This document shows, one piece after another, positions 719 to 55,953 of a stretch of 64,000 nucleotides of DNA. The notes below the pieces were generated by a model, which was not told the origin of the DNA, ran no database searches, and saw nothing but the letters and a program-made list of their open reading frames with translations. A program made the translations under genes and the position numbers. The stretch is taken from NCBI RefSeq assembly GCF_017311415.1, contig NZ_JAEKIS010000005.1, positions 186,001 through 250,000 on the forward strand, read 5' to 3'. Within the stretch, counting starts at the first letter, position 1; each line of letters begins with the position of its first letter. The DNA is from Salipiger abyssi (GTDB taxonomy: Bacteria > Pseudomonadota > Alphaproteobacteria > Rhodobacterales > Rhodobacteraceae).

Positions 719-742
719 GGTGGGCGGGATTGCCCACCCTAC
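719..742 (-). repeat. GTAG-headed palindromic repeat, copy 1 (single)
   Basis: GGTGGGC (719-725) and GCCCACC (732-738) form a hairpin, followed by CTAC; on the minus strand it reads GTAG then hairpin. It is one of eight copies in the window and lies between two convergent genes. Confidence 0.8.
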
Positions 743-754
743 ACCCTGCGCACC

Positions 755-1423
755 TTACCCGATGCTTTGCGCCAGCACCCGGCTGATCGTGGTGAGTGTG
801 GCGCCGCTTTCCTCCCGCAACGCATTGAACGCCTGCTGGACGGCCTGCATGGCCTTGCGCGAGCTTGGCGCCTTGTCGATCACGCCCTCGGCCACCAGCC
901 GCGCCACCACATCCTGACTGAGAATATAGCCGTCCTTGCCCATGCTGCGCAGGAGATAGGCCGCCGTCCCGCCGCCAAGCCGCGACCCGTCGCGCTTGAG
1001 CCAGTCGAGCAGCCCGGCGAAATCCGCCTCGGGCCAGTCGGCCACCCGGCGCCCGAAGGGAGTGCCCTCTTCGGCGAGGCGGCGCAGGAACGCCGCGTTG
1101 TCGCGAATGGCAGCAATCTTGGGCGCCGAGCGGATCACCCGCCTGTCGGCGACGAGATCGTCGAACCAGTCTTCCGACATCATCGACAGCGCGCCCACAT
1201 CGAAGCCGCGAAACGCCTCTTCGATCTCCGGCCATTTGTTCTCGACCACGGTCCAGCTTATCCCGGCCTGAAAGATCCCCCGCGCCATACCCGCAAGCCA
1301 GCGGTCATCGGGGATGGCGGCGATCTCGTCAGGTGATTTCGGCGTCGGAATGCCGGCGAGCACAGCGTCGCGCCCGCCCTTCCGCTCGGCGGCGATATCA
1401 AGGATCTCTTCGAAACGGCGCAT
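755..1423 (-). CDS. Divergent DNA-3-methyladenine glycosylase I (Tag)-like protein
   Basis: 222 residues. Similarity to the Tag family (base excision of 3-methyladenine) lies in the helix FQAGISWTVV (near residue 50), the following GFD segment and the C-terminal region. E. coli Tag has LEGQQAGLSW here; its catalytic Glu aligns with Gly in the present MARGIFQAGISW. The N-terminal Cys and His ligands of the Tag zinc snap are also absent. It may belong to a subfamily with altered chemistry. It faces the aminotransferase and lies next to a small membrane-protein gene on the same strand. Confidence 0.72.
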   Translation of the reverse strand: MRRFEEILDIAAERKGGRDAVLAGIPTPKSPDEIAAIPDDRWLAGMARGIFQAGISWTVVENKWPEIEEAFRGFDVGALSMMSEDWFDDLVADRRVIRSAPKIAAIRDNAAFLRRLAEEGTPFGRRVADWPEADFAGLLDWLKRDGSRLGGGTAAYLLRSMGKDGYILSQDVVARLVAEGVIDKAPSSRKAMQAVQQAFNALREESGATLTTISRVLAQSIG

Positions 1424-1517
1424 CGGCCCCTCCAGCGTTCACACTGAGCGAAAACTGCCGGACGGACCAACAAAGGTAAAGAACAAATTGAGAACAGCCC
1501 GCTGCGGGGCCACCCTA

Positions 1518-1775
1518 TCAATCCGCGCCCGCAGGCACGCTGTTCAGATCCTGAGCATCGCGCTCCACCGCCGCGTCCTCGTTCACCTGTTCGGACTGGC
1601 CAGTGAAATCGTCCATCACGGTGCCCTGTGCCTCGGGCGCCTCGCCGCCGGCTATGACCCAGCCGAGCCAGCCGAGAAAGAGCAGCACGACAATGCCCAG
1701 CCCGGCCCAGATGCCCCAGAGCGGCGCGCGGTGCTGGCGTTCCTGTTTCTTGAGATTGGTGTCGGGTGCCGACAT
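1518..1775 (-). CDS. Small single-span membrane protein, unknown function
   Basis: 85 residues: a basic, hydrophilic N-terminus (MSAPDTNLKKQERQ), one transmembrane helix at about residues 20-43 (WGIWAGLGIVVLLFLGWLGWV), and an acidic tail of about 40 residues. There is no cleavable signal, so an N-in anchor with the acidic tail in the periplasm is likely. A GGAGGGG-type ribosome site lies just upstream of the ATG. It is divergent from pepN. I do not recognise a family. Confidence 0.65.
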   Translation of the reverse strand: MSAPDTNLKKQERQHRAPLWGIWAGLGIVVLLFLGWLGWVIAGGEAPEAQGTVMDDFTGQSEQVNEDAAVERDAQDLNSVPAGAD

Positions 1776-1891
1776 GGTCCCCTCCTTTCGATTTTTCCCG
1801 GGCGCGCGGTTGCCGCCCGTGTCTCATAGGCCTAACACTTTGGCAGCCGACACAGTTCCGGCGCCGCCCCAGCCCCGAGGATGAGAGAGAC

Positions 1892-4507
1892 ATGAAAGAC
1901 GCGAGCCCCCAGACCATCTATCTCGAGGATTACACCCCCTTCGGCTGGCAGGTGGCGGATGTGCATCTCACCGTGGCGCTGGCGCCCAATGCCACAAGGG
2001 TCAAATCGCGCATCCATTTCGTGCCGAACCCGAACGCTCCGGAGCAGGAGTTCTTCCTGCATGGCGAAGAGCTGAAACTGATCCGCGCCGCCATCGACGG
2101 CGAAGAGGTCGCGCCCGAGGTCACGCCGCAGGGCCTGCGCTGCAAGGTGCCCTCCGGCCCGTTCCTCTGGGAGGCGGAGGTCGAGATCGCGCCGGCGGAA
2201 AACTTCGCGCTTGAAGGGCTTTACATGTCGAACGGCATGTATTGCACACAATGCGAGGCGGAAGGCTTTCGCAAGATTACCTATTACCCCGACCGGCCCG
2301 ACGTGATGGCCACCTTCACGGTGCGCATCGAGGGCGATGAGGCGGTGAAACTGTCGAATGGCAACCCCACCGACAGCGGCGAAGGCTGGGCGGAATGGCA
2401 CGATCCCTGGCCGAAACCGGCCTATCTCTTTGCGCTGGTGGCGGGCGATTTGGTGAACCATCCCGGGGAGTTCACCACCATGTCGGGCAAGACGGTGGAG
2501 CTGAACATCTGGGTCCGCCCCGGCGACGAGGACAAATGCGCCTTCGGCATGGAGGCGCTGAAAGCCTCGATGAAATGGGATGAAGAGGTCTACGGGCGCG
2601 AATACGACCTGGACATTTTCAACATTGTTGCGGTCGACGACTTCAATATGGGCGCGATGGAGAACAAGGGGTTGAACATTTTCAACTCTTCCTGCGTTCT
2701 CGCCTCTCCCGAGACCTCGACCGACGCAAATTTCGAGCGCATCGAGGCGATCATCGCGCATGAGTATTTCCACAACTGGACCGGCAACCGCATCACCTGC
2801 CGCGACTGGTTCCAGCTTTGCCTTAAAGAGGGGCTGACGGTGTTCCGCGACAGCCAGTTCACCTCCGACATGCGTTCGGCCGAGGTGAAGCGGATCTCCG
2901 ACGTGATCGACCTGCGCGCGCGCCAGTTCCCCGAGGATCAGGGGCCGCTCTCACACCCGGTACGGCCCGAGAGCTTTCAGGAGATCAACAATTTCTATAC
3001 CGCCACGGTCTATGAGAAAGGCGCCGAGGTGATCGGCATGCTCAAGCGGCTGGTGGGCGACGAGGATTACGCCAAGGCGCTGGATCTCTATTTCGAGCGC
3101 CACGATGGCGACGCGGCGACCATCGAGGACTGGCTGAAGGTGTTCGAGGACGCCACGGGCCGCGATCTGGCGCAGTTCAAGCGCTGGTACTCGCAATCCG
3201 GCACCCCGCATCTGAGCGTGACAGAAGATTATGCCGACGGGGTCTATACGCTGACCTTCAAGCAGCACACGCCGCCCACCCCCGGCCAGTCCGAGAAGGC
3301 GCCGCAGGTGCTGCCCATCGCGGTTGGGCTGCTGAACCCCAATGGCGACGAGGTGGTGCCGACCACGGTGCTGGAGATGACAGAGGCCGAGCAGAGCTTC
3401 AGCTTTTCATGGACTGCTGAAGGCTGGGTTCTGAATACTGGTAATCCAGATGAGATGCCTGAGCGCGTCGATGGAAGTGTTTCAACAAAGCCGGTGCCCT
3501 CGATCCTGCGCGGCTTTTCCGCGCCGGTGGTGCTGGAGCGCGAGACCGCTCCCGAGGAAAAGCGCTTTCTGCTCGCCCATGACACCGACGCATTCAACCG
3601 CTGGGAGGCGAGCCGCGATCTCGCCCGCGCCTGCCTCTACGCGATGATCACCGAGGGCGCCGGGCCGGACACCGCCTGGATCGACGCGCTGGAACAGGTT
3701 GTGCGCGCCGCCGATCTCGATCCGGCTTTCCGCGCGCTGATGCTGTCGCTGCCGACCCAGTCGGAGCTGGCGCAGATGCTGCATGCCAGGGGCGTGACGC
3801 CCGATCCGGACGCGATCTATGCCGCCACCGAGGCGCTGAAAAACGCCATGGCCGAGCGCTGGTCCGTCCTGCTGCCGGCGCTGCGCGAGGAAAGCGCGGT
3901 GAGCGCCGCCTACAGCCCCGATGCCGAGCAATCCGGCAAGCGCGCTCTGGGCAACGCGGTGCTGGCGCTGCAAACCCGGCTCGACGGCGGCAAGGCAGCA
4001 CAAGCGCAATACGATGCCGCCGACAATATGACGATGCAGCTCAGCGCGCTGAGCTGCCTAATCTCGGCGGGCGCCGAAGAGACCGCGCTGGCCGCGTTCG
4101 AGGCGCAGTGGAAAGATGACCGGCTGGTGATGGACAAATGGTTCGCGCTTCAGGTCGCCGCCACCGCCCCGGAAAATGCCGCGACCCGCGCCGGGGCGCT
4201 GACCGAGCGGGCGGATTTCGACTGGAAGAACCCCAACCGTTTCCGCGCGGTGATGGGCTCGCTGGCGATGAACCACGCGGGTTTTCACGCCAAGGATGGC
4301 AGCGGCTACAAGCTGCTGGCGGACTGGCTGATCAAGCTGGACGAGAAAAACCCGCAGACCACGGCGCGCATGTGCTCGGTCTTCCAGACCTGGAAACGCT
4401 ACGATGCAGGACGCCAGGCACTGATGAAGGCCGAGCTGGAGCGCATCGCCGGCAAGCCCGGACTGTCGCGCGACGTGACCGAGATGGTGACACGGCTGCT
4501 GAGCTGA
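1892..4507 (+). CDS. pepN: Aminopeptidase N (M1 zinc metalloprotease)
   Basis: 871 residues, matching bacterial PepN (about 870). It removes N-terminal amino acids from peptides in the cytoplasm. Landmarks: substrate motif GAMEN at residues 254-258, HEYFHNW zinc motif at 290-296 and third ligand Glu313, with the 23-residue spacing to the first His seen in E. coli PepN. The start is ATG 1892 after GAGAGA; an in-frame extension back to 1766 would overlap the divergent membrane-protein gene and has no M1 similarity. The C-terminal half is the helical PepN-specific domain. Confidence 0.96.
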   Translation: MKDASPQTIYLEDYTPFGWQVADVHLTVALAPNATRVKSRIHFVPNPNAPEQEFFLHGEELKLIRAAIDGEEVAPEVTPQGLRCKVPSGPFLWEAEVEIAPAENFALEGLYMSNGMYCTQCEAEGFRKITYYPDRPDVMATFTVRIEGDEAVKLSNGNPTDSGEGWAEWHDPWPKPAYLFALVAGDLVNHPGEFTTMSGKTVELNIWVRPGDEDKCAFGMEALKASMKWDEEVYGREYDLDIFNIVAVDDFNMGAMENKGLNIFNSSCVLASPETSTDANFERIEAIIAHEYFHNWTGNRITCRDWFQLCLKEGLTVFRDSQFTSDMRSAEVKRISDVIDLRARQFPEDQGPLSHPVRPESFQEINNFYTATVYEKGAEVIGMLKRLVGDEDYAKALDLYFERHDGDAATIEDWLKVFEDATGRDLAQFKRWYSQSGTPHLSVTEDYADGVYTLTFKQHTPPTPGQSEKAPQVLPIAVGLLNPNGDEVVPTTVLEMTEAEQSFSFSWTAEGWVLNTGNPDEMPERVDGSVSTKPVPSILRGFSAPVVLERETAPEEKRFLLAHDTDAFNRWEASRDLARACLYAMITEGAGPDTAWIDALEQVVRAADLDPAFRALMLSLPTQSELAQMLHARGVTPDPDAIYAATEALKNAMAERWSVLLPALREESAVSAAYSPDAEQSGKRALGNAVLALQTRLDGGKAAQAQYDAADNMTMQLSALSCLISAGAEETALAAFEAQWKDDRLVMDKWFALQVAATAPENAATRAGALTERADFDWKNPNRFRAVMGSLAMNHAGFHAKDGSGYKLLADWLIKLDEKNPQTTARMCSVFQTWKRYDAGRQALMKAELERIAGKPGLSRDVTEMVTRLLS

Positions 4508-4531
4508 CCCCGGCTGGCGGCTGTCTGGAGC

Positions 4532-4555
4532 GGTGGGCAGAATTGCCCACCCTAC
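4532..4555 (-). repeat. GTAG-headed palindromic repeat, copy 2 (single)
   Basis: GGTGGGC and GCCCACC arms followed by CTAC, in the same orientation as copy 1, 24 nt after the pepN stop. It lies between convergent pepN and the lytic transglycosylase and could form a transcript-end hairpin. Confidence 0.8.
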
Positions 4556-4690
4556 GCGGGCGATGACGGGGATCGTGGCGGATGGCAACGGCGAATGACC
4601 GTCCGCGCCTTCGCCTTCGAACATTCGAACAAAAGCGCTGAACGATATGTGCCGGCGGGTCCGTCTCGGGTGATCGTTTGCACCACCCGG

Positions 4691-4728
4691 GCGAATGCCT
4701 CCGGGAGAGTAGTTGCCGAAAAGAGGAA
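4691..4728 (+). repeat. Degenerate copy of the second intergenic repeat family
   Basis: GCGAATGCCTCCGGGAG followed by a decayed GTAGTTG and AAAAGAGGAA. The first 14 bases (GCGAATGCCTCCGG) equal those at 25054-25067, where a complete palindromic copy occurs. Only one arm is recognisable here. Confidence 0.55.
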
Positions 4729-4747
4729 CGTCGGACGTGACCCGGGA

Positions 4748-5623
4748 TCAGTGCTCCCGGCCGATGTCCTGTTCGGCGGTCGTACCCGAGGTGGCAATGA
4801 CGGGATCGGAGGCTTTGCGCACGATGGTTCCGTCGATGCTGAGCGCCACGACCCCCTGCATTTCCGGCAATTGCGGGCGCGTGCCCTCAAGCCCGGCCAT
4901 GAGCGCGGGCTGGCCCCAGGCATCGGGGCGCGCCACCGGTTTCAGCGAGCGCGGCAGACCGGCGCAATAGGGCTGCGCGCGCGTCCATGCGATCATGTCC
5001 TCGCGTTTCGCCCGCGAGTGAAACGGGCCCCAGTCGGCCGCCACGCCGCGCATATTTCGGCTCACCACCCCGTCGCGCGCCACGGTCTTGGCCATGATGC
5101 GCAGCCCGCAGGCCAGGTTGAGACGCGGATCCTTGAGCGCCGCCCCGCTGCGCGCTTCGCAGCCATAGAGCCGCGCGGTCGAGGGCAGGATTTGCAGCAG
5201 CCCATACCACAGCCCGCCGCCGCCCACGGCGGTGGGGCGATACGTGCTTTCATGCTTGGCCAGCGTCGAAACCAGCCCCAGCCAAAACGCCTCGCGGTCG
5301 GCCTGGGTGGCGCTGGGATAGGCCGGGCACCAGGTCGAAATATCGGCGGGCACGGTTTCCGGCAGGCGGCTGGCATGACCGCGCAGCGCCGACAGCGCCG
5401 CCAGAGACCAGGTGTTGCGGTCTGCGGATCTGCCCCAGCGCGCCTCGGGGATGCGCATCCGGCGCACCTGCGGGCGCAGCGACTCGGACACAGCCGCCGT
5501 CACCTTGGCGATGGGCGGAAGGCGGACCGGATCGGACCAGGCGGCGCTTGCAGTGACCAGCGCCGCCACGACACAGAGAACACGGGGCAGCATGGCCCAG
5601 ACGCTTGCCACATCGGGTTCCAT
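4748..5623 (-). CDS. Lytic murein transglycosylase (SLT domain), exported
   Basis: About 291 residues from ATG 5623; ATG 5593 is also possible because no strong ribosome site separates them. A hydrophobic leader ending near TASAAWSD looks like a signal peptide, so it acts on peptidoglycan in the periplasm. The SLT core follows: AKHESTYRP with catalytic Glu about residue 125, then GLWYGLLQILPSTARLYGC. The Glu-Ser pair and the aromatic GLLQ segment are family hallmarks. The last 50 residues after the domain have no recognised fold. Substrate class among lytic transglycosylases is not determined. Confidence 0.82.
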   Translation of the reverse strand: MEPDVASVWAMLPRVLCVVAALVTASAAWSDPVRLPPIAKVTAAVSESLRPQVRRMRIPEARWGRSADRNTWSLAALSALRGHASRLPETVPADISTWCPAYPSATQADREAFWLGLVSTLAKHESTYRPTAVGGGGLWYGLLQILPSTARLYGCEARSGAALKDPRLNLACGLRIMAKTVARDGVVSRNMRGVAADWGPFHSRAKREDMIAWTRAQPYCAGLPRSLKPVARPDAWGQPALMAGLEGTRPQLPEMQGVVALSIDGTIVRKASDPVIATSGTTAEQDIGREH

Positions 5624-5685
5624 GGGTAAAGCGCGAGGGGGTGGCATCCCCGAGGCGCATAGGTGGAAACCGGGTATCGCCTGCA

Positions 5686-5700
5686 TTAACCCTTTGTAAA
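5686..5700 (+). promoter_or_regulatory. Possible CtrA-like site (TTAA-N7-TAAA)
   Basis: TTAACCCTTTGTAAA matches TTAA-N7-TTAA except one base. It lies between divergent genes (lytic transglycosylase and the 5726 ORF) in the only AT-rich stretch of that spacer. Weak single-site evidence. Confidence 0.25.
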
Positions 5701-5725
5701 TCAATGCGGCAGGACCGGGACAGCG

Positions 5726-7132
5726 ATGCGCGGAATGCCGCCGCTTCTTCGCCGGAACGCCCTCATGACGCCCGAATCCGCGACCAGTCTCTCCGTCATG
5801 ATGGTTCCCGGTAAGATTCCCGATCTGTTTCCAGCAGTCCGCGCCCTGGGCGCCCGGCTGGGTGTGCGACCCCGTGCCGGGGAGGTTTCGATGCCGCTGC
5901 CCTCACGCCCGGAGGACTGTCCCGGCAGCGCGCCACAGCCCCGGATCCTGATCCCGGTCCGCGACGCCCCGCCCGACGCGGTGCAGCGCGACCGCCTGCG
6001 GACGCAGGGGCGCTATCTCGCCCGGCAGGAGGCCTGGGAGGTGCTGGCGCGCGGGCTGCGCGAGGCGGATACCGCCCGAGATGCCGCGCCCGGAGGCACG
6101 CCGGTAGCGCGGCTTCTGGCCGAGGGCGCCTGTTCGGACGCGATGGGGAGCGCGCTGGCCGCTGTCCGTCGCGACGATCCCACCGCCGCCCGCGCCAGCC
6201 TTTTCGCCCTGCGCGACGCCATCGACGGCGCCGAACGCGCGCCCTGGCTCGCCGCCATGCTGGCGCAAGCGCATCTCGGCGTGGCCAAAGCTTGGGCCAC
6301 CCGCTCTGGCGGCCTCCTGCATCGCGATGCCCGGGCGCAACATCTGGAAGCGGCGCAGCGACTGATCGCACCCTTCGATCCGCTGGAGCACGACTCGCCC
6401 CTGCTTGCCGCGCTGCGCTGCGCTCTGCTCGATCTGGATCCGCATCCGGAGCATCGGGTCTATGACGATTACGAGGATCTGATCGACCTCGATCCCGCCT
6501 GCCCCGACCACCTGCGCGCGCTGGGACGCGACCTGATCCCGCAGCGCTTTGGCGACTGGGAGCGGCTCGACCGCGAGGCGCGGCGCACCGCCGGGCACAC
6601 CGCGGATATCTGGGGGCTGGGCGGCTATGCCTGGGTGTGGTTCGACGCGCTGGCGGGCGCCGCGCCGGGCGGCTTCGCGAATGTGGATGCGGAGCTCTTC
6701 GCCGAGGGGCTGCACGATATCCTGCATCGCCGCCCCGATCAGCACATGGCCAACCTGCTGGCCGCCTATTGCGGGCTGACGCTCTCGGGTGCCGCCGTGC
6801 CGGGCTCGGCCCGGGCCCGCATTGCCGGCTGTTTCGGCTGGATCGCGCAGGACCATCTGCGCGAGGTGCATCCCGAGCTCTGGGCCGATGCCCGCCCCGT
6901 CCGGGGCAGCACCGACGGCGGCGAGCGGCTGCGGCTGGGTGAGGCCCGCGCGCTCTCTGCGCTGGCGGAGCATTTCGCCCATCAGCTGGCGCGCGGCCGG
7001 CAGGTGCGCTTTACCGAGGCGGGCATCGTGCTGACACCCTCGCCCTGTGCCGCCTGCACCCTTGCTCCCTGTTCCGCTCTGGCGTATCCCCGTCGCGATC
7101 AGCGAGACGAGGATGCGCCATGCTTGACCTGA
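5726..7132 (+). CDS. Conserved hypothetical protein, helical, unknown function
   Basis: 468 residues if started at ATG 5726 (preceded by CGGGACAGCG); ATGs at 5735 and 5765 are alternatives. No transmembrane segment or signal peptide is obvious. The middle (residues 90-400) is rich in Ala/Leu/Arg/Asp with helix-like spacing and the repeated acidic segment [16 protein letters not shown], suggestive of a TPR-like solenoid but without a clear repeat. The C-terminus has CAACTLAPC, a three-Cys cluster. It overlaps the start of gatB by 13 nt, so translation is probably coupled. I do not recognise the family. Confidence 0.7.
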
Positions 7133-8634: not shown

Positions 8635-8642
8635 CCCTGCTC

Positions 8643-8668: not shown

Positions 8669-8679
8669 CGTCTGCCGCT

Positions 8680-9702: not shown

Positions 9703-9708
9703 CCGCGC

Positions 9709-23539: not shown

Positions 23540-23577
23540 TTTGCAAACTAGCGAACCATCCCGCGCAAATCCGCAAA
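23540..23577 (+). promoter_or_regulatory. Candidate PccR autoregulatory operator
   Basis: TTTGCAAA at 23540-23547 and GCAAATCCGCAAA at 23565-23577, ending 17 nt before the pccR ATG. Matches the pccB site with half-sites 25 rather than 35 nt apart. Position just ahead of the ribosome site fits autorepression. Confidence 0.7.
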
Positions 23578-23594
23578 CGGGCGAGGAGGGGACG

Positions 23595-24986
23595 ATGGCC
23601 ACACGCAAGCTCTATGCGGGCGCCAAGCTGCGCGATCTGCGCGGACGGCTCGGACTGACGCAAAAGGATTTCGCCGCCAAGCTCGGCATTTCGCTGCCCT
23701 ACCTGAACCAGATGGAGAACAACAACCGCCCCGTCAGCACCACGGTGGTGCTGGCCCTGGCGCAGGAATTCGGCTTTGACGTCACCGAACTCGGCCAGGG
23801 CGACAGCGAGCGGCTGGTCACCGACATGCGCGAAGCGCTGGCCGATCCGGTCTTTGGCGAGACGCCGCCGCTGGCAGATCTGCGGCTCACCGCGTCGAAC
23901 GCCCCCGCCCTCGCCCGCGCCTTTCTGGAACTGCACCGCGCCTATCGCCAGACCCATGAGCGGCTGGCCAGTCTTGACGAGGCGCTGGGGCGCGAGGGTG
24001 CGCAACTCCAACCCTCCCCCTGGGAGGAGGTGCGCGATTTCTTCCATTATTGCGACAATTATATCGACGCGGTGGACCGCGCGGCGGAGCATTTCGCAAA
24101 CGGGCTGAACGGAGAGATGCGCGGCGCGGTGATCGCGCGGCTGCGCGAGCGCGGCATCGCGGTCGAGATGGCCCATAGCGCGACGCTGCGCGCCTACGAC
24201 CCGGCGCGCAAGCAGCTCACCCTGTCGAGCCTGGTGCCGCCGGAGACGCAGAATTTCCAGTTGCTGGTGCAGGTGGCGCTGCTGCGGCAGAACGATCTGC
24301 TGGAGGCGACGCTGGATCTGGGTCGTTTCCAGTCCGACGCCGCCCGCGCCATCGCCAAGCTGGGGCTCGCGAATTACTTCGCCGGCGCCGCGCTGATGCC
24401 CTATGGCCGCTTCCTCGCCGCGGCGCAGGAGACGCGGCACGATCTGGAACTGCTTGCCGCGCGGTTCGGCGCCTCGATCGAACAGGTGGCGCATAGGCTC
24501 TCGACACTGCAACGGCCCGGCGCCAAGGGCATCCCGTTCTTCTTCGCCCGGGTTGATCAGGCCGGCACGATCACCAAGCGGCACTCGGCCACACGGCTGC
24601 AATTCGCCCGTTTCGGCGGCGCCTGTCCGCTCTGGAACGTGCACCGCGCCTTTGAGACCCCTGGCCGTTTCCTGCGCCAGCTTGCCGAGACGCCGGACGG
24701 GGTGCGCTATGTGCTGCTCGCGCGCGACGTCACCAAGCGCGGCGGCCATTTCGGCGCGCCGGTACGGCGCTACGCCATGGCGCTGGGATGCGAGGTCAAA
24801 CATGCCGGCGCGCTGGTCTATGCGGACGGGCTCGATCTGGGGCGCGACGGCGCGTTCGAGCCCATCGGCATCTCCTGCCGGATCTGCGAGCGCACCGACT
24901 GCCACCAGCGCTCGGTGCCGCCGCTGGAAAAGCGGCTCTCGATCCACCCCGAACGGCGCGAGGTGCTGCCCTATTCGCTGGAATGA
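23595..24986 (+). CDS. pccR: Short-chain fatty acyl-CoA regulator PccR (XRE/ScfR family)
   Basis: 463 residues, ScfR length. N-terminal helix-turn-helix (residues 8-63: LRDLRGRLGLTQKDFAAKLG and LPYLNQMENNNRPV), a central IrrE/peptidase-like domain, and a C-terminal cysteine cluster C428-x2-C431-x4-C436 in SCRICERTDC. In R. sphaeroides PccR activates propionyl-CoA carboxylase genes; acyl-CoA probably acts as effector. ATG 23595 follows GAGGAGGGG. Location immediately beyond pccB and MFS, with operator copies at both, is classical. Confidence 0.92.
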   Translation: MATRKLYAGAKLRDLRGRLGLTQKDFAAKLGISLPYLNQMENNNRPVSTTVVLALAQEFGFDVTELGQGDSERLVTDMREALADPVFGETPPLADLRLTASNAPALARAFLELHRAYRQTHERLASLDEALGREGAQLQPSPWEEVRDFFHYCDNYIDAVDRAAEHFANGLNGEMRGAVIARLRERGIAVEMAHSATLRAYDPARKQLTLSSLVPPETQNFQLLVQVALLRQNDLLEATLDLGRFQSDAARAIAKLGLANYFAGAALMPYGRFLAAAQETRHDLELLAARFGASIEQVAHRLSTLQRPGAKGIPFFFARVDQAGTITKRHSATRLQFARFGGACPLWNVHRAFETPGRFLRQLAETPDGVRYVLLARDVTKRGGHFGAPVRRYAMALGCEVKHAGALVYADGLDLGRDGAFEPIGISCRICERTDCHQRSVPPLEKRLSIHPERREVLPYSLE

Positions 24987-25002: not shown

Positions 25003-25025
25003 GGTGGGCAAATTGCCCACCCTAC
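25003..25025 (-). repeat. GTAG palindromic repeat, copy 3 (left member of pair)
   Basis: GGTGGGCA-AAT-TGCCCACC then CTAC. Its GTAG end faces copy 4, 157 nt away, with the second repeat family in between. Confidence 0.85.
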
Positions 25026-25053: not shown

Positions 25054-25137
25054 GCGAATGCCTCCGGCGGGCGTATTTGCAAAGAGAAGAAACGCAAGAG
25101 AACGCCCCTGCCCCCTTCTTCTCTTTTCCAAATACGC
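25054..25137. repeat. Second intergenic repeat family, complete palindromic copy
   Basis: GCGAATGCCTCCGGCGG leads into GCGTATTTGC-AAAGAGAAGAA (25071-25091), whose near-perfect inverted copy is at 25116-25137. The arms are about 21 nt with one mismatch and one indel; loop about 24 nt. Confidence 0.8.
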
Positions 25138-25182: not shown

Positions 25183-25206
25183 GTAGGGTGGGCAATTCTG
25201 CCCACC
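25183..25206 (+). repeat. GTAG palindromic repeat, copy 4 (right member of pair)
   Basis: GTAGGGTGGGCA then TGCCCACC. Inverted with respect to copy 3, so GTAG ends face each other. Confidence 0.85.
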
Positions 25207-29855: not shown

Positions 29856-32090
29856 ATGCCGGATGGCTCGGAAAGCGAAAGCCGCAAGCTGCTTGGCCGG
29901 CTGCGCGACACCATGGCCGAAGAGGCCGCGGGTCAGGCGCGGCTGGACAAGATCACGCATCTGACGGCGGATTCGATGGGCACCGAAGTGTGCTCCGTCT
30001 ACCTCTTCCGCGACGAGGACACGCTCGAGCTCTGCGCCACCGAGGGGCTCAAGCAGGAGGCGGTGCACCACACACGGATGAAGCTCGGCGAGGGCCTCGT
30101 GGGGCGCGTGGCGCGCACCGGCAAGATGGTCAACACCGCTGACGCGCCCTCGGAACGCGGCTTCCGCTACATGCCCGAGACCGGCGAGGAGATCTTCTCC
30201 AGCTTCCTCGGCCTGCCGATCCAGCGGCTTGGCGAAAAGCTCGGCGTGCTGGTGGTGCAGACCAAGGCCAAGCGCGAATTCACCGCCGACGAGATCTATG
30301 CGCTTGAGGTCGTCGCCATGGTGCTGGCCGAGATGGCCGAGCTCGGCGTCTTTGTCGGTGAGGGCGCGGCGCTGAAGGCACGCCACACCCAGGCGGCGAT
30401 GATCCGGGGCATCACCGGTCAGGAGGGCACCGCCGAGGGCCATGTCTGGCTGCACGAGCCGCGCGTCGTGGTCACCAACCTGGTCAGTGACGATCCCGAG
30501 CGTGAGCGCGAGCGGCTGAAATCGGCGGTGGAGAAACTTCGGGTCAGCGTCGACGAGATGCTTGCGGGCGCCAGCGGCGAGCAGCTCGAAGTGCTCGAAG
30601 CCTACCGCATGTTCGCCAATTCCAAGGGCTGGCGGAAGCGCATGGAAGAGGATATCGACCGCGGCCTCTCCGCCGAGGCGGCGGTGGAAAAGGAGCAATC
30701 CGCCGCCCGCGCCCGCATGGGCCAGGTCACCGACGCCTATCTGCGCGAGCGGCTGCACGATCTCGACGACCTGTCGAACCGGCTGCTGCGCATTCTCACC
30801 GGTCAGGGCAGCGAGACCGGCGCCGAGATGCCCGCCGACCCGATCCTCATCGCCCGCAATATCGGCCCCGGCGAGCTGCTCGATTACGGGCGGCGGCTCA
30901 GAGGCATCGTGCTGGAGGAGGGCTCGGTCGGCAGCCACGCCGCCATCGTCGCCCGTGCCCTGGCTATTCCGCTGGTCGTCCGCGCCGACCGGGTGCTGAC
31001 CGAGGCGCTGAACGGCGATCACATCATGGTCGACGGCGATCAGGGCGTGGTGCATCTGCGCCCCGACGAAAGCGTCGTCAGTGCCTTCCGTGACAAGATC
31101 GCGATGCAGGCGCAGGCGCAGGAGCGCTACGCCTCGATCCGGCAGAAACCGGCGATGTCGATCTGCGGCAAGCAGATCAACCTGTTCATGAATGCGGGGC
31201 TTCTGGCCGATCTGCCGTCGCTGCCGAGCTCCGGCGCCGAGGGCGTCGGGCTGTTCCGCACCGAGCTGCAATTCCTCATCCGCAACCAGATGCCGCGCCG
31301 CACCGAGCTGGTCGAGGTCTACAAGCGGGTGATGGATTCCGCCGGCGACAAGCCGGTGATCTTCCGCACGCTGGATATCGGCTCGGACAAGGTGCTGCCC
31401 TATATGAAGCCCAATGACGAGCCCAACCCGGCGCTCGGCTGGCGGGCGATCCGCGTCGGACTCGACAAGCCGGGCGTGATGCGGATGCAGATCCAGGCGC
31501 TGCTGCGCGCCTCCGAGGGGCGGCCGCTATCGGTGATGTTCCCCTTCGTGGCGCAATACGAGGAGTTCCGCGCCGCCCGCGCCGAGGTCGACAAGGCCAT
31601 GGCCATCGAGCGCAAGCTCGGCCACAAGGTGCCCGAGACCATCACCATCGGCACCATGCTGGAGACGCCGAGCCTCGCCTATGCGTCGAAGAAGTTCTTC
31701 GAGGACGTGGCCTTCATTTCGATCGGCGGCAACGATCTCAAGCAGTTCTTCTTTGCCGCCGACCGCGAAAACGAGCGGGTGCGCCGGCGCTACGATACGC
31801 TGAACGTGAGCTTCCTGACCTTCCTCGAAGGCATCGTGCAACGCTGCTCCGAGACCGGCACGGCGCTGAGTTTCTGCGGCGAGGATGCAGGGCGGCCCAT
31901 CGAGGCGGTGTGTCTCGCCGCCATCGGGCTGCACAAGCTGTCGATGCGCCCGGCCTCCATCGGCCCGGTGAAAAGCCTGATCATGCGCACCGATCTCGAT
32001 GCGCTCTACGATGTGATCTGCGACGCACGCGAACGCGGCGAGCAGTCGGTGCGCGAGTCGGTGCTGGATTACCTGCGCTGGAACGGGTGA
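29856..32090 (+). CDS. ptsP: PTS-Ntr enzyme I (GAF plus EI domains)
   Basis: 744 residues. GAF domain at residues 20-155 (MGTEVCSVYLFRDEDTLELC), then the PEP-utilising EI region. The phospho-acceptor His is in GSVGSHAAIVARALAIPLVV at residue 361; the C-terminal PEP-binding barrel has GLFRTELQF, FRTLDIGSDKVLPY and SIGGNDLKQFFFA. It phosphorylates NPr in the nitrogen PTS. Position after lysC is common in Rhodobacteraceae. Confidence 0.96.
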   Translation: MPDGSESESRKLLGRLRDTMAEEAAGQARLDKITHLTADSMGTEVCSVYLFRDEDTLELCATEGLKQEAVHHTRMKLGEGLVGRVARTGKMVNTADAPSERGFRYMPETGEEIFSSFLGLPIQRLGEKLGVLVVQTKAKREFTADEIYALEVVAMVLAEMAELGVFVGEGAALKARHTQAAMIRGITGQEGTAEGHVWLHEPRVVVTNLVSDDPERERERLKSAVEKLRVSVDEMLAGASGEQLEVLEAYRMFANSKGWRKRMEEDIDRGLSAEAAVEKEQSAARARMGQVTDAYLRERLHDLDDLSNRLLRILTGQGSETGAEMPADPILIARNIGPGELLDYGRRLRGIVLEEGSVGSHAAIVARALAIPLVVRADRVLTEALNGDHIMVDGDQGVVHLRPDESVVSAFRDKIAMQAQAQERYASIRQKPAMSICGKQINLFMNAGLLADLPSLPSSGAEGVGLFRTELQFLIRNQMPRRTELVEVYKRVMDSAGDKPVIFRTLDIGSDKVLPYMKPNDEPNPALGWRAIRVGLDKPGVMRMQIQALLRASEGRPLSVMFPFVAQYEEFRAARAEVDKAMAIERKLGHKVPETITIGTMLETPSLAYASKKFFEDVAFISIGGNDLKQFFFAADRENERVRRRYDTLNVSFLTFLEGIVQRCSETGTALSFCGEDAGRPIEAVCLAAIGLHKLSMRPASIGPVKSLIMRTDLDALYDVICDARERGEQSVRESVLDYLRWNG

Positions 32091-32101: not shown

Positions 32102-32124
32102 GGTGGGTTGAAAACCCACCCTAC
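32102..32124 (-). repeat. GTAG palindromic repeat, copy 5 (left of pair)
   Basis: GGTGGGTT-GAAA-ACCCACC then CTAC. The stem sequence has drifted compensatorily (GGGTT pairs AACCC) relative to other copies, showing that base-pairing is maintained. Confidence 0.82.
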
Positions 32125-32133: not shown

Positions 32134-32156
32134 GTAGGGTGAGTTTCCAACCCACC
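32134..32156 (+). repeat. GTAG palindromic repeat, copy 6 (right of pair)
   Basis: GTAGGGTGAGTT-TCC-AACCCACC. Inverted to copy 5, only 9 nt apart. One stem mismatch (A for G). Confidence 0.82.
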
Positions 32157-48795: not shown

Positions 48796-48932
48796 GAAAT
48801 GACCACCTTTCCTGGAAATACGACCGCAGGCTGAGCGCGGGGCGCATATGGCGGCGCAACATGTGGGGCGCAAGGGGGAAATGTCAATGTGGGGCCAGAT
48901 GCCGCTACATGCGTGGCGCCCCTGCCCGCTTT

Positions 48933-50111: not shown

Positions 50112-50257
50112 CCCTGAGCCCCATCTGCTTGCAGGGATATCTCTAGCCCGAGTTTCCTTAATCAGTGGTAAACCAACTCGGAAAATCCCCGGCCTGGGCC
50201 AAAAAACACTGCCCTCTTTAAAAAAGACCGCAAGCCCTCGGAACCGCGATCCGCGCG

Positions 50258-50698: not shown

Positions 50699-52100
50699 CG
50701 GTCAGGCCCCCGATCATCACCGTCGGCTGGCCCACGCCCACCGGCACCCATTGCCCCTGCTTGCCGCAATTGCCCATGCCCGGATCGAGCACCATGTCGT
50801 TGCCGAGCGCGCGGATCTGTTGCAGCGCCGTGGCGCCGTCGCCGATCAGCGTGGCGCCCTTGACCGGGGCGCCGACCTTGCCGTTCTTCACCCGGTAGGC
50901 CTCGGTGCAGGAGAACACGAACTTGCCGTTGGTGATATCCACCTGACCGCCGCCGAAACCGACCGCCCAGATGCCGTCTTCAAGATCCGCGACGATATCG
51001 CCCGGATCGGTGTCGCCGCCCAGCATGTAAGTATTGGTCATGCGCGGCATCGGCGCATGGGCATAGCTTTCGCGGCGCCCGTTGCCGGTGGGCGTCACCC
51101 CCATCAGACGGGCGTTCTGCCGGTCCTGCATGTAGCCCACGAGCACGCCGTCCTCGATCAGCACGTTCTTTCCCGAAGGCGTGCCCTCGTCATCCACGGT
51201 GATCGAACCGCGCCGGTCGGGGATGGTGCCGTCGTCGAGAACCGTGACACCCGGCGCCGCGATGCGCTGCCCCATCAGCCCGGCAAAGGCCGAAGAGCCC
51301 TTGCGGTTGAAATCGCCCTCGAGCCCGTGGCCGATGGCCTCGTGCAGCAGGATGCCCGGCCAGCCCGGGCCAAGCACGATATCCATCACCCCCGCCGGCG
51401 CCGGCTCGGCACTCAGGTTGACCAGCGCGATGCGCAAAGCCTCGCGCGCCTTGCCCTGCCAGTCGGAAGGCTCAAGCAGCCCATCGAGCAGAAACCTCCC
51501 GCCGCCGGAGGCGCTGCCGGCCTCGCGGCGACCGTTCTCCTCGACGATCACGCTCACCGTGACGCGGGTCATCGGGCGCGTATCGGTGACCAGCGTGCCT
51601 TCGGGGCGCAGGATCGCCACCTCCTGACAGCTCGCGGCGATGGTGGCGGTGACCTGCACCACGCGCTTGTCGAGCCCGCGCGCATAGGCGTCGATCTCGC
51701 GCAGCGTGTCGATCTTGACCGGAAAGGTCTGCCCGGCGATGGGGTCGGCATCGGTATAGAGGGTGCGGTTGGTGCCCGCGGGCGGCGGCGCCAGCACACC
51801 GCCGCCATCGCCCACCGCCAGCCGCGCGGTTTCCGAGGCGCGCGCAATGGCGCGTTCCGACAGCTCGGTCGCATGCGCATAACCGGCGACCTCACCTTTC
51901 ACCGCGCGCAGGCCGAATCCCTCGGATGCGTCGTAGCTCGCGGTCTTGATTCGCCCGTCATCGAGCACCAGCGCCTCGGCGCGGCGGCGTTCCAGGAACA
52001 GCTCTCCGTCCTCGGCGCCGTCCAGCGCCGTGCGCAGCTGCGCCAGCGTCCGGTCGCGATCCAGCGCTGTTTCAAAGGGGCGAAAGGGGGCTTCGGCCAT
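50679..52100 (-). CDS. tldD: Metalloprotease TldD
   Basis: 473 residues. With TldE it trims unfolded peptides in the cytoplasm. HEAIGHGLEGD at residues 253-263 is the signature zinc motif; N-terminal ERRRAEALVLDDGRIKTASY and C-terminal VGVGQPTVMIGGLTVGGA are also typical. tldE is not in the window. An FNR box is 18-31 nt before its start. Confidence 0.95.
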   Translation of the reverse strand: MAEAPFRPFETALDRDRTLAQLRTALDGAEDGELFLERRRAEALVLDDGRIKTASYDASEGFGLRAVKGEVAGYAHATELSERAIARASETARLAVGDGGGVLAPPPAGTNRTLYTDADPIAGQTFPVKIDTLREIDAYARGLDKRVVQVTATIAASCQEVAILRPEGTLVTDTRPMTRVTVSVIVEENGRREAGSASGGGRFLLDGLLEPSDWQGKAREALRIALVNLSAEPAPAGVMDIVLGPGWPGILLHEAIGHGLEGDFNRKGSSAFAGLMGQRIAAPGVTVLDDGTIPDRRGSITVDDEGTPSGKNVLIEDGVLVGYMQDRQNARLMGVTPTGNGRRESYAHAPMPRMTNTYMLGGDTDPGDIVADLEDGIWAVGFGGGQVDITNGKFVFSCTEAYRVKNGKVGAPVKGATLIGDGATALQQIRALGNDMVLDPGMGNCGKQGQWVPVGVGQPTVMIGGLTVGGAQA

Positions 52101-52117
52101 GAGATACCTCGATTTAT

Positions 52118-52131
52118 TTGATCCAGATCAA
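52118..52131. promoter_or_regulatory. Perfect FNR/FnrL box (TTGAT-N4-ATCAA)
   Basis: TTGATCCAGATCAA in the 190-nt divergent spacer between tldD and coxB. A second TTTATTTGAT half-like repeat is at 52163-52172. Oxygen control of aa3 oxidase by FNR-type regulators is established in related bacteria. Confidence 0.72.
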
Positions 52132-52290
52132 AAAAAGCGCCTTTTTGCCGCGCCAGACCTGCTTTATTTGATGCACGGATTGTGCTTTTTAAAGAGCGGA
52201 ACTCAGAGGGGAGGAGGTCTCGCCCAGGCGCACCGCGCTGGATGTATCCTCCTGCGAACGAACAAGAACGACAACCGGATCAGGTGACAC

Positions 52291-53196
52291 ATGCGTAAGA
52301 TTTCGATGCTGACGGGGCTTATGGCCAGCCTTCTGGCCGCGCCCGCCATCGCCCAGGACCTGGAAGTGGTGGGACGCCCGCATCAAGGTGGCCTGGGCTT
52401 CCAGCCCGCCGCGACAGAGCTGGCCCGCGACCTCCAATGGCTCGACGGCATGCTGCTCATCATCATCACGGCAATCACCCTGCTGGTGGTGGCACTGATG
52501 ATCTTTGCCTTCATCCGCTTCAACCGCCGCGCCAACCCGACGCCGGCCAGCTTCACCCACAACACGCCGATCGAGGTGGCCTGGACCATCGGGCCGATCA
52601 TCATCCTGGTGGTCATCGGCGCCTTCTCCCTGCCGGTGCTGTTCAAGCAGCAGGAGATCCCCGAGGGCGACGTGATCATCAAGGTGACGGGCTACCAGTG
52701 GTACTGGGGCTATGAATATGTCGGTCAGGAGCTGGCCTATGACAGCTACATGATCGGCCAGCCCTACACGCTGGAAGCCGAGGACGAAGAGGCCGGCGCC
52801 CAGGCCTATGTCTTCAGCCCGGCGATGGAAGCCAAACTCGAGCGCGCCGGCTATTCCAAGGACGACTGGCTGCTGGCCACCGACACCTCGGTCGTCGTGC
52901 CCGTGGGCGCCACCGTGGTGATGCAGGTCACCGGCGCCGACGTGATCCACTCCTGGACCATCCCCGCCTTCGGCGTGAAGCAAGACGCCGTGCCGGGCCG
53001 GATCGCCGAGCTGTGGTTCAATGCCGAGCGCGAGGGCGTCTATTTCGGCCAGTGTTCCGAGCTCTGCGGCATCTCGCACGCCTATATGCCGATCACCGTG
53101 AAGGTGGTCAGCCAGGAGGCCTATGACGCCTGGCTCGCCGCCTCGCAGGAAGACGGCGGCTATGTCGACGTCCGCCAGTTCCTGGCCAATTCCTGA
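52291..53196 (+). CDS. coxB: Cytochrome c oxidase subunit II
   Basis: 301 residues with signal peptide, two transmembrane helices and a cupredoxin domain. CuA ligands: His220 (GADVIHSW), Cys255, Cys259, His263, Met266 in [12 protein letters not shown]. Accepts electrons from cytochrome c in the periplasm. First gene of the aa3 operon. Subunit I is not in the window. Confidence 0.96.
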
Positions 53197-53261
53197 ACCT
53201 TCCCGGCGCGTCCCGCCCCGGGGCGCGCCACTGACGACCTGAAAGAGCCAAAGATCTTCGC

Positions 53262-54212
53262 ATGACCGATCTCAGCACCAACACCACCGTCACCGCATCC
53301 CAGCCCGGCGAGGCACAGTTCGGCGACTATTTCGCCCTTCTGAAGCCCCGGGTGATGACGCTGGTGGTGTTCACGGCGCTGGTCGGTCTGCTGGCCGCGC
53401 CCACCCCCGTCCACCCGTTCATCGGCTTCTGCGCGATCCTGTTCATCGCCGTGGGCGGCGGCGCCTCGGGCGCGCTCAACATGTGGTGGGACGCCGATAT
53501 CGACGCGGTGATGAAACGCACCGTCAAGCGCCCGATCCCCGCCGGCAGGGTACAGCCGCAGGAGGCGCTGGCCTTCGGTCTGGCGCTGTCGGTCTTCTCC
53601 TGCGTCTTCCTCGGCCTTGCCACCAACTGGCTGGCCGGTGGGCTGCTGGCCTTTACCATCTTCTTCTATGTCGTGATCTACACCATGTGGCTGAAGCGCT
53701 CGACGCCGCAGAACATCGTGATCGGCGGCGCCGCGGGCGCCTTCCCTCCGATGATCGGCTGGGCCGCGGCCACCGGCTCGGTGAGCGTCGAGGCGGTGCT
53801 GATGTTCTGCCTGACCTTCATGTGGACGCCGCCGCATTTCTGGGCGCTGGCGCTCTTCATGCGCTCCGATTACGACGATGCGGGCGTGCCGATGCTGACC
53901 GTGACCCACGGCCGCCGCGCCACCCGCGTGCATATCCTCGTCTATACCGTGCTGCTGGCGGCACTCGCCATCGGCACCGGCTTCACCGCCATCGGCGGGC
54001 CGGTCTATCTGGCCGTGGCGCTGGTGCTGAACGCGCTCTTCCTCAAGGGCGCCTGGGAGATCTTCCGCCGCGACGAAGCGGATTCGGAAGCGGACAATTT
54101 CAAAACCGAGAAACGCTTCTTCAAGCTCTCGCTGCTCTACCTCTTCGCGCATTTCGGCGCGATTCTGGCAGAGGCCGGGCTGGCGCAATTCGGGCTGGGA
54201 GGCTGGGCATGA
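53262..54212 (+). CDS. ctaB: Heme O synthase (protoheme IX farnesyltransferase)
   Basis: 316 residues, nine predicted helices. UbiA-type prenyltransferase with [15 protein letters not shown] (Asp-rich motif 1) and [12 protein letters not shown]. Makes heme O, precursor of heme A for aa3 oxidase. In operon with coxB; overlaps the next ORF by 4 nt. Confidence 0.96.
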
Positions 54213-54385
54213 GCATCGCCAAGCAACACGAGCTGCACAAACGCCGCTTTGGCCGCAATGTCGGGCTGGGGCTGGTGCTGGCGGCCTTCATCGTCATCGT
54301 TTTCGGCATGACCGTGGTGAAGGTGACCAACGGCAATTTCTCGGCGGCGCTTCAGGGCAACGCACAGGTGCAGAATGGCAACTGA
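54209..54385 (+). CDS. 58-residue membrane protein between ctaB and ctaG
   Basis: [20 protein letters not shown] then one TM helix ([19 protein letters not shown]). ATGA overlap with ctaB and 11-nt overlap with ctaG. Small single-span proteins at this position in alphaproteobacterial cox operons are regarded as oxidase assembly factors. A histidine and basic N-tail face the cytoplasm by the positive-inside rule. Confidence 0.85.
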
Positions 54386-54959
54386 CGGCAAGAACAAGAC
54401 GCTGCTCCAGCTGATCGGCGTGGTGGTCTTCATGGGCGCCATGGCCTGGGCGGCGGTGCCCTTCTATAACTGGTTCTGCCGGGTGACCGGCTTTGGCGGC
54501 ACCACCAACGTGGCCGAGGGCCCTGCGGGCAAAATCCTCGACCGCACCATCAAGGTCCGCTTCGACGCCTCCAAGGCGCGCGGCTTCCCCTGGGAGTTCA
54601 AGCCGGCGCAGACAGAAATGACCCTGCGTATCGGCGAAGAGGGCCTGGCCTTTTACGAGGCTTACAACCCCACCGACCACCCGGTCGCCGGTCAGGCTGC
54701 CTACAATGTCTACCCCTATGAAGCCGGCGCCTTTTTCGACAAGATCGAATGCTTCTGCTTTACCGAGCAGGTGCTGATGCCGGGTGAGCGCGTGATGATG
54801 CCGGTGAGCTTTTTCGTCGATCCCGAGATCGTCGAGGACCGCGATGCGAAATACACCAAGCATATCACGCTGAGCTACACTTTCTACGAGATCGACCTGC
54901 CCGAAGAGGCGCAGGCCGCGCTCGATACCAAGACCGCGGACGAGAATTCCGTGAACTGA
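54375..54959 (+). CDS. ctaG: Cytochrome c oxidase assembly protein CtaG (Cox11)
   Basis: 194 residues. N-terminal anchor ([20 protein letters not shown]), then a periplasmic beta domain. Copper motif [14 protein letters not shown] holds the CFCF cysteines that deliver CuB to subunit I. Normal length. Confidence 0.95.
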
Positions 54960-54984
54960 ACGCCGATCCAACGAGGGAAACGAG

Positions 54985-55785
54985 ATGGCGCACGCTAAAA
55001 ACCACGATTACCACATTCTGAACCCCTCCATCTGGCCGTTCATGGCCGCGGTGGCGGCGTTCGTCATGCTGTTCGGCACCGTGCTCTGGTTCCATGGCAG
55101 CGGCCCCTGGATCTTCCTCGCGGGCTTTGTCGGCGTGCTCTACGTGATGTTCGGCTGGTGGTCCGACGTGATCGCCGAAAGCCGCGTCGGCGATCACACC
55201 CCGGTGGTGCAGATCGGCCTGAAATACGGCTTTATCCTGTTCATCATGTCCGAGGTGATGTTCTTCTTCGCCTGGTTCTGGTCGTTCTTCAAACACGCGC
55301 TCTATCCGATGGGCCCGAACTCGCCGGCGGTCGACGGCGTCTGGCCGCCCGCCGGGATCGAGACTTTCGACCCCTGGCACCTGCCGCTGATCAACACCAT
55401 GATCCTGCTCTGCTCGGGCTGCGCAGCGACCTGGGCGCACCACGCGCTGGTGCATGAGAACAACCGCGAAGACATGAAATGGGGCCTGATCATCGCCATC
55501 GTTCTGGGCGCGATCTTCTCGGTCTTCCAGGCCTATGAGTACAGCCATGCGGCCTTTGGCTTCTCCGGCAACATCTATGGCGCCAACTTCTTCATGGCGA
55601 CGGGTTTCCACGGCGCACATGTCATCATCGGCACGATCTTCCTCTTCGTCTGCCTGCTGCGGCTGATGAAGGGCGATTTCACGCCGACCAAGCATATCGG
55701 TTTCGAGGCTGCCGCCTGGTACTGGCACTTCGTCGATGTGGTGTGGCTCTTCCTCTTCGCCGCCGTCTATGTCTGGGGCGGCTGA
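54985..55785 (+). CDS. coxC: Cytochrome c oxidase subunit III
   Basis: 266 residues, seven predicted helices. [19 protein letters not shown] start, [45 protein letters not shown] and [14 protein letters not shown] end. The final gene before a strong terminator. Confidence 0.96.
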
Positions 55786-55811
55786 GCTTCCTCGCGACAA
55801 GCGCAAAATAG

Positions 55812-55840
55812 AAAAGCGGGCCTTCATGGCCCGCTTTTTT
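55812..55840 (+). terminator. Intrinsic terminator of cox operon
   Basis: AAAAGCGGGCC-TTCAT-GGCCCGCTTTTTT; bidirectional form with A-run and T-run, directly after coxC. Confidence 0.92.
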
Positions 55841-55861
55841 GTTGGATCGAGGCTCCGGTGT

Positions 55862-55884
55862 GGTGGGCAGATTGCCCACCCTAC
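55862..55884 (-). repeat. GTAG palindromic repeat, copy 7 (left of pair)
   Basis: GGTGGGCA-GAT-TGCCCACC then CTAC (minus-strand GTAG head). Paired with copy 8, 46 nt away. Confidence 0.85.
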
Positions 55885-55930
55885 GACGTTTTCACGATGT
55901 CTTTGAGAGGCTTCCGCCCGATCGGTGCGT

Positions 55931-55953
55931 GTAGGGTGGGCAATCTGCCCACC
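55931..55953 (+). repeat. GTAG palindromic repeat, copy 8 (right of pair)
   Basis: GTAGGGTGGGCA-ATC-TGCCCACC. Inverted to copy 7. Lies just after the end of the convergent saccharopine dehydrogenase gene. Confidence 0.85.

Follow-up and report, generated by a model that had tools for sequence, protein, structure and literature searches.

A 64,000-nucleotide stretch of a Salipiger abyssi genome carries eight short hairpins headed by GTAG, and the questions raised by this locus are what kind of element they represent, what spreads them and why more than one stem sequence occurs among them. The stretch analyzed, referred to here as the window, spans C5:186001-250000 of genome G000 (5.2 Mb in 75 contigs). 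A preliminary description had claimed eight GTAG hairpins, six of them arranged as three pairs with spacers of 157, 9 and 46 nt and with the GTAG ends facing inward. All eight copies (8/8) were found in place, and the arrangement of all three pairs was borne out. The hairpins in the window have a stem of 8 bp and a loop of 3 to 4 nt. They are listed under the two classes, A and B, that are argued for below.

719 to 742, minus strand: class A REP (GTAG plus GGTGGGCA), single, with the top of the stem mismatched at one position, flanked by an aminotransferase ORF (2-688, plus) and a methyladenine-glycosylase-like ORF (755-1423, minus)
4532 to 4555, minus strand: class A REP, single, close behind an M1 aminopeptidase ORF (1766-4507, plus)
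25003 to 25025, minus strand: class A REP, left half of pair 1, past an ScfRs-domain ORF (23541-24986, plus); conserved in G006
25183 to 25206, plus strand: class A REP, right half of pair 1 across a spacer of 157 nt, with GTAG facing inward; conserved in G006
32102 to 32124, minus strand: class B REP (GTAG plus GGTGGGTT), left half of pair 2, immediately past a GAF/PEP-utilizing enzyme ORF (29856-32090, plus)
32134 to 32156, plus strand: class B REP (GTAG plus GGTGAGTT), right half of pair 2, one mismatch, spacer of 9 nt
55862 to 55884, minus strand: class A REP, left half of pair 3, past a cytochrome oxidase subunit III ORF (54985-55785, plus); conserved in G006
55931 to 55953, plus strand: class A REP, right half of pair 3, spacer of 46 nt, adjoining a saccharopine-dehydrogenase-like ORF (55973-57097, minus) at its 3' end; conserved in G006

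The 24 GTAG REP families figured by Di Nocera et al. 2013 (PMC3733652) are described there as having a GTAG tag, a 6- to 13-bp stem, a small loop, a mostly extragenic location and a tendency to occur as dimers. The same source describes REPtrons, in which REPs flank RAYT genes and the GTAG can supply a TAG stop codon, and occasional intragenic REPs. Compared by description, the Salipiger copies share all of these features. Most of them also share the architecture of REPSm of the Stenotrophomonas maltophilia REPtron Sm (group 3), reported as a 23-nt element whose perfect palindrome of 8 bp encloses a 3-nt loop (PMC8266576). The window hairpins were correctly recognized as a known kind of element. 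An Rfam search of the window gave 0 matches at the gathering score, and two weak sub-gathering matches in the long-spacer stretch were taken as chance. A 12-mer searched at up to 3 mismatches was not enriched in the window (57 versus 48.9 expected), such a near-match count being uninformative.

Two REP classes and their RAYT genes

Copy number was examined across the 5.2-Mb genome G000, in which the strict class A hairpin (GTAGGGTGGGCA..TGCCCAC) occurred 140 times (68+72) and its reversed control 0 times. A relaxed hairpin finder detected 48 copies in 860 kb of G000, and 0 and 1 copies in two Markov-shuffled 697-kb controls. The stem was GGTGGGCA in 35 of these 48 copies, GGTGGGTT in 12 and GGTGAGTT in 1; the tag was GTAG in 46, GCAG in 1 and GTGG in 1. 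Neighbors less than 300 nt apart were found 13 times in the 860 kb, against 1.12 expected for random placement and a simulation maximum of 4 (n = 500). The GTAG ends faced inward in 12 of the 13 close pairs, and the stem was identical in both halves of 11 of these 12, the twelfth being a window pair whose halves differ at one base. The pair statistics proposed as a check in the preliminary description therefore placed pairs far above chance and nearly all in one orientation. Inverted REP pairs are also the form of REPINs, regarded as a likely mobile unit (Bertels and Rainey 2011, PMC3116915), but the spacers of the inward pairs in Salipiger vary, at 9-61 and 151-213 nt.

Strict copies were counted in a genus set of 20 genomes, comprising G000, which is the genome of the window, and other Salipiger genomes that include G004, G006, G008 and G017. 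Strict GGTGGGCA copies numbered 140 in G000, 125 in G004, 83 in G006, 9 in G017, 1 in G008 and 0 in the other 15 genomes. Strict GGTGGGTT copies numbered 25 in G000, 2 in G006, 0 in G004, 11 in G017 and 0 in the other 16.

A search of the genome for RAYT genes, likewise proposed beforehand, detected two with the NF047646 profile (curated cut-off, 80 bits). RAYT-A is located at G000 C9:157296-157772 on the minus strand (166-166.6 bits) and RAYT-B at G000 C3:218755-219261 on the plus strand (about 160-163 bits). Both proteins are NF047646 equivalogs, and the HxH motif is visible in each. With both matches on contigs C3 and C9 and the window on C5, the earlier observation that the window holds no RAYT gene stands. 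RAYT-A is flanked on both sides by GGTGGGCA REPs, the 5' one being degenerate in G000, and the GTAG of a REP supplies the TAG stop codon of the gene. For RAYT-B, REPs adjoin just the 3' end, as a GGTGGGTT pair. The neighbors of RAYT-A are presumably a rhodanese-like ORF on one side and uvrB on the other, and that of RAYT-B is an ORF which we take to be of the ABC-F type.

The Pfam profile PF01797 recovered neither RAYT gene in G000 and matched only 3 of the 20 genus genomes, each of which has at most one strict class A REP. PF01797 alone had suggested REP-rich Salipiger genomes without a RAYT gene, a suggestion overturned by the NF047646 matches. Among 198 family genomes, an NF047646 match (E <= 0.001) was present in 19 of the 22 genomes with at least 10 such hairpins versus 58 of the 176 others (p = 1.8e-6, relatedness ignored). 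No NF047646 match was detected in the remaining 3 of the 22 REP-rich genomes, G024, G096 and G146, despite their 30, 63 and 10 such hairpins, or in G017, which nevertheless has 9 strict copies of class A and 11 of class B. The best fold match of the predicted model of a relative, L104, was 4er8, the E. coli TnpA-REP with a REP hairpin (TM of 0.87 on the target), which was also the only PDB sequence relative at E <= 0.001 (E 1.2e-39).

Window copies 5 and 6 were assigned to class B because the GGTGGGTT counts are separate from the GGTGGGCA counts and because RAYT-B is adjoined by GGTGGGTT. The preliminary description had treated copy 5 as a stem with compensated changes. The exchanged stem bases (GGTGGGTT/AACCCACC) are real, but they mark a second REP class rather than a chance compensated variant. 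That the window copies represent two coexisting REP classes, A (GGTGGGCA) and B (GGTGGGTT), is well supported. The alternative of one REP family, with copies 5 and 6 as class A members altered by drift and compensation, is hardly credible: the classes differ by just two stem base pairs (CA to TT) and further stem forms of like kind occur in Rhodobacteraceae, but the 25 strict GGTGGGTT copies of G000 compare with none in G004 although G004 has 125 class A copies, RAYT-B is the gene that GGTGGGTT adjoins, a weakly supported tree places RAYT-A and RAYT-B in different clades, L091 and L212 group with RAYT-B and likewise go with GGTGGGTT, and the halves of inward pairs share their stem except for the single base of the twelfth pair.

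Persistence of sites and a REP within coaBC

The fate of the two classes was compared in G006, which is ~95% identical to G000 across the compared parts of the window. RAYT-A is kept in G006 (171 bits), and RAYT-B is a 61-bit remnant beside the same ABC-F-type ORF. Strict class B copies number 25 where the RAYT-B frame is open (G000), 2 where RAYT-B is a remnant (G006) and 0 where there is no second match (G004). For 24 of the 34 own REP sites of G000, orthologous G006 sequence was available for comparison, the copies at 719 and 4532 lying outside this set; a site was scored as kept if it had an equal number of REPs with at most one mismatch. Class A was kept in G006 at 12/17 sites and class B at 0/6 (Fisher p = 0.0046), a contrast drawn from 23 sites in one species pair, with a mixed A/B site, changed in G006, omitted from the test. 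A damaged hairpin was still present at several of the non-kept sites (for example C1:562431, C1:430286 and C3:327135), and hence the contrast between the classes is one of decay no less than of absence. G000 and G006 have the majority of comparable class A sites in common; therefore, recent class A activity is limited or old.

Several sites differed between the two genomes. A 21-nt presence/absence difference, its direction not polarized, was detected at G000:C3:307120, one G000 pair corresponds to a single GTAG-less hairpin in G006, a hairpin is exchanged at C1:364626, and each of the three class B pairs that were compared is matched in G006 by either an altered pair or a lone hairpin. No whole-unit insertion or excision of REP pairs was seen in the comparison of G000 with G006. 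Within the window, pairs 25003/25183 and 55862/55931 are the same in G006, with equal spacing. The 32102/32134 site has a class B pair in G000, a degenerate GGTGGGGT-like pair with a nearly equal spacer in G006 and a class A pair with a different spacer in G004; no such pair was seen at this site in G017. One site thus holds different stem sequences in the three genomes that have a pair. These comparisons are all between species, with no movement observed, and they confirm the expectation that copies differ between close relatives. The preliminary description had named two outcomes that would speak against its reading, chance-level pairing and a lack of RAYT genes together with a lack of differences between relatives, and neither was found.

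The hairpins could instead be ordinary transcription terminators, or mRNA-stabilizing hairpins selected at gene ends, with an incidental link to RAYT genes. The location of the five window sites (two singles and three pairs), which begin 31, 25, 17, 12 and 77 nt past the end of a Pfam-matched ORF, is as such an explanation would have it, as are the retained fold of copies 5 and 6 and the rarity of intragenic copies; among the 48 copies in 860 kb, 2 lie inside long G+C3-biased ORFs and the one in coaBC is the sole convincing case. The presumed position of several copies at transcript ends, noted in the preliminary description, agrees with the flanking ORFs. However, a G+C hairpin followed by a T-run, as in an intrinsic terminator, was found at none of the eight copies, and a scan of the five sites placed no terminator-like hairpin on any REP copy. 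At the COX3 site, the REP pair is preceded by a distinct terminator-like hairpin (55812-55838). A near-identical sequence at 140 places, a fixed GTAG tag and one pair orientation would be superfluous for termination, each class is adjoined by its own RAYT gene, and class B sites are lost or decayed where RAYT-B is a remnant. We regard this explanation as very unlikely, although the REPs may have an RNA-stabilizing side role.

The REP/RAYT reading of the window hairpins is upheld by the two RAYT genes, the adjoining REPs of their own class, the excess of pairs and the differences between relatives. It is highly probable that the eight copies are non-autonomous GTAG REPs of two classes, each maintained and spread by a Y1/HUH RAYT of its own, whose gene lies elsewhere in the chromosome. 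RAYTs are reported to act on single-stranded REPs and to coevolve with them, and how REPs spread is described as a question that is still open (PMC8266576). By analogy with the biochemistry of the family, the RAYT would bind the single-stranded REP hairpin via GTAG and then cut and rejoin it.

A route of spread was suggested by a class A REP inside coaBC at G000:C3:323137. This gene was identified by TIGR00521 across 245 residues of a fragment, with 217.3 bits versus a full-length cut-off of 219.7, and coaBC is an essential gene in many bacteria. The coaBC alignment was free of gaps at the REP spot in 20/20 Salipiger genomes, which indicated that the REP had replaced coding sequence of equal length. 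The REP is present in G000 and G004 (peptides VGKLPTLR and VGRLPTLR), and the other 18 genomes have ordinary peptides, such as AGRLPVLE. G006 is a closer relative of G000 than G004 is, yet it is without the coaBC REP; either the REP was lost again in G006, or it had two origins, or G006 is an intermediate. In the genomes without the REP, the site matches a REP at 17/24 positions in G006 and at 9-16/24 in the other 17 species. A likeness of 17/24 was reached by 3.5e-5 of positions on both strands of 0.94 Mb of G006, REPs included, and the likeness in G006 is as expected if REP-like sequence were the target of overwriting.

An origin of the coaBC REP by point mutation, or by insertion with an equal deletion, would be in keeping with this partial likeness at sites without a REP, and G006 could be such an intermediate. 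Against it, 10/30 bases of the tract differ between G000 and G006, compared with 92% identity over 900 bp (P = 7e-5 if sites are independent), no gap occurs in the stretch in any of the 20 species, and G000 and G004 share the tract (2/30 bases differ) although G006 is closer to G000. We consider such an origin improbable. The length-neutral replacement in coaBC is a single clear case and suggests, as far as sequence comparison goes, that REPs may spread by overwriting as well as by insertion. Weaker cases that are compatible with overwriting are the changed stem at 32102 and the exchanged hairpin at C1:364626.

A scan of 290 distinct GTAG hairpins, which skipped RAYT ORFs by a motif filter and which, by requiring a long G+C3-biased ORF, can miss genes, placed only the coaBC REP convincingly inside another gene, and hence overwriting in coding sequence rests on one gene. 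The other passes were L190, a RAYT gene missed by the motif filter, and L054 and L259, whose ORFs were judged to be non-genes. Some copies would then have arisen by insertion, as with the 21-nt difference at G000:C3:307120, and some by length-neutral overwriting of REP-like sequence, as in coaBC, possibly through annealing of RAYT-made REP single strands at the replication fork. Gene conversion of REPs was reportedly proposed by Higgins et al. in 1988.

In-frame REPs in RAYT genes

The RAYT-A coding sequence itself holds a perfect class A REP in frame, translated as AVGRIAHPT, which is identical in three Salipiger species and is surrounded by bases that differ. Internal hairpins were scanned for in the 147 unique RAYTs among 158 loci with a match (L043 was without one), with the criterion of a GTAG-type hairpin with a perfect stem of at least 8 bp inside the coding sequence, G/T-only stems included. 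The set consisted of 85 Rhodobacteraceae RAYTs and 62 others, the latter being records not titled Rhodobacteraceae. The 85 were not a random sample but comprised the 66 best-scoring family-genome matches, 14 named records recovered with RAYT-A as the query and 5 Salipiger RAYTs; weak or partial matches fell mostly outside the 66, and L102, among the 85, is titled Paracoccaceae.

Synonymous-codon shuffles predicted an internal hairpin in 0.5 of the 85 Rhodobacteraceae RAYTs and in 0.3 of the 62 others; the numbers found were 31 and 1 (p = 8.6e-8), the latter with a sequence unlike REPs. Further, weaker internal cases under other rules, such as L090, were left out of the 31. A further 28 RAYT-like genes from the taxonomic class, 27 from other families and only five scoring more than 140 bits, showed no REP-type internal hairpin. 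Within the matched domain, the internal hairpins are located between codons 88 and 139, in the stretch from the HxH to the WQ motif; the WQ pattern was not found in L183. Their layout (n = 31) was a single minus-strand REP in 16 RAYTs, a plus-minus pair in 10, a single plus-strand REP in 4 and a minus-plus pair in 1.

Stem classes were compared between internal REPs and hairpins within 900 bp outside the gene. The 8-nt stem was shared in 24 of 26 testable RAYTs, over eight stem classes; permuted outside sets gave a mean of 5.2 matches and a maximum of 13 in 2000 shuffles, relatedness being ignored. The region of the insert measures 18-55 aa in RAYTs with an internal REP. In the 54 Rhodobacteraceae RAYTs without one, it measures 14-15 aa in 31 and 18-43 aa in 13, and the longer regions are perhaps decayed inserts. 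A RAYT tree that was built without the insert columns, and that took in 16 of the 62 others, needs 14 state changes, with 46 of 98 inner forks open. In the L104 model the insert falls in a low-confidence loop, with residues 97-108 below 50 pLDDT, and its position corresponds to a turn at residues 89-91 of 4er8. The E. coli TnpA-REP has no insert at this turn, where many Rhodobacteraceae RAYTs carry a REP-encoded loop. Overall, RAYT-internal cognate REPs form a strong pattern, as judged by these comparisons of genes and predicted proteins.

An in-frame cognate REP inside a RAYT gene is a feature for which the available part of the account of the GTAG REP families (PMC3733652) has no mention, and no such case was found in the accessible portion of the open-licence literature. 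Beyond the recognition of a known REP type, this analysis adds the two-class system, the cognate REPs internal to RAYT genes and the coaBC replacement without length change.

The in-frame REPs may have no function, if the activity of a RAYT is mostly confined to the vicinity of its gene and inserts are tolerated in just one disordered loop. The position of the insert in a low-confidence loop, at a turn of 4er8, accords with this explanation, as do the abundance of REPs at RAYT loci and the many RAYTs without an insert (14-15 aa in 31 of the 54 without an internal REP). What it leaves unaccounted for is that the internal class tracks the outside class in 24/26 RAYTs, though related RAYTs share long inserts on the tree, that the internal REP block is identical in three Salipiger species while nearby bases differ, and that REP-type hairpins are lacking in the 62 others, apart from one chance-like case, and in the 28 further RAYT-like genes. 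On this evidence we judge that the absence of a function stands at an even chance.

A functional role is a tentative and rather doubtful proposal: the Rhodobacteraceae RAYT gene would contain an in-frame copy of the substrate of its enzyme, located in a disordered loop and acting as a self-tag, for autoregulation or as a built-in seed copy, and RAYT-driven overwriting of REP-like sequence by single strands would be the main way in which REPs spread and change class. As overwriting keeps length and reading frame, internal and outside REPs would stay in step under this proposal. Either the process that spreads the copies or selection may hold the internal REPs to the class found outside the gene.

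The coaBC REP, with zero length change and absent from most of the genus, is a concrete case for REP gene conversion. A natural experiment is offered by the genus, in which two RAYT/REP pairs occur and one has decayed in a close relative, and RAYT genes that hold their own REP would make it possible to test whether the enzyme regulates its gene, tags it or simply peppers it.

Ends of the RAYT-A gene

Both flanks of the transposase gene RAYT-A were examined in the source genome (G000:C9:157145-157850, within stretch L046):

G000:C9:157296-157772, minus strand, RAYT-A, adjoined by class A REPs

The stop codon of this gene, TAG, was found to be supplied by the GTAG of the 3' REP. At the other end, the upstream ORF terminates in a stop codon that is immediately followed by the 5' REP.

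Sequences associated with REP pairs

Two further elements were detected in the source genome:

L242:13189-13390 (G000:C3:319189-319390), ~200-nt dispersed repeat, within or adjoining long REP pairs
Window 25071-25091, GCGTATTTG-AAAGAGAAGAA motif, inside the 157-nt REP spacer
L242:17482-17502, GCGTATTTG-AAAGAGAAGAA motif, downstream of coaBC

A search of 1.8 Mb of G000 and its close relative G006 detected 10 copies of the ~200-nt repeat, 8 of which were bordered by a REP on at least one side. Folding was stronger than that of shuffled sequences (200 shuffles; z, -3.3), no Rfam family was matched at gathering score, and the repeat was for the most part absent from the orthologous G006 site. A query that contained the coaBC-side motif stretch produced >10 matches in 13 of 20 Salipiger genomes, and most of the matches listed fell at the motif stretch.

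Detection of transposases by different models

Hairpins of the GTAGGGTGGG type were present in three family genomes, G024 (n = 30), G096 (n = 63) and G146 (n = 10), in which a search with the NF047646 profile detected no match; the RAYT may have been lost, missed by this search or left unassembled. Within Salipiger, PF01797 matched Y1 transposases in three REP-poor species (G002, G008 and G016) but missed the RAYTs of G000, G004 and G006, which were detected by NF047646. A transposase survey utilizing either model alone would be misleading.
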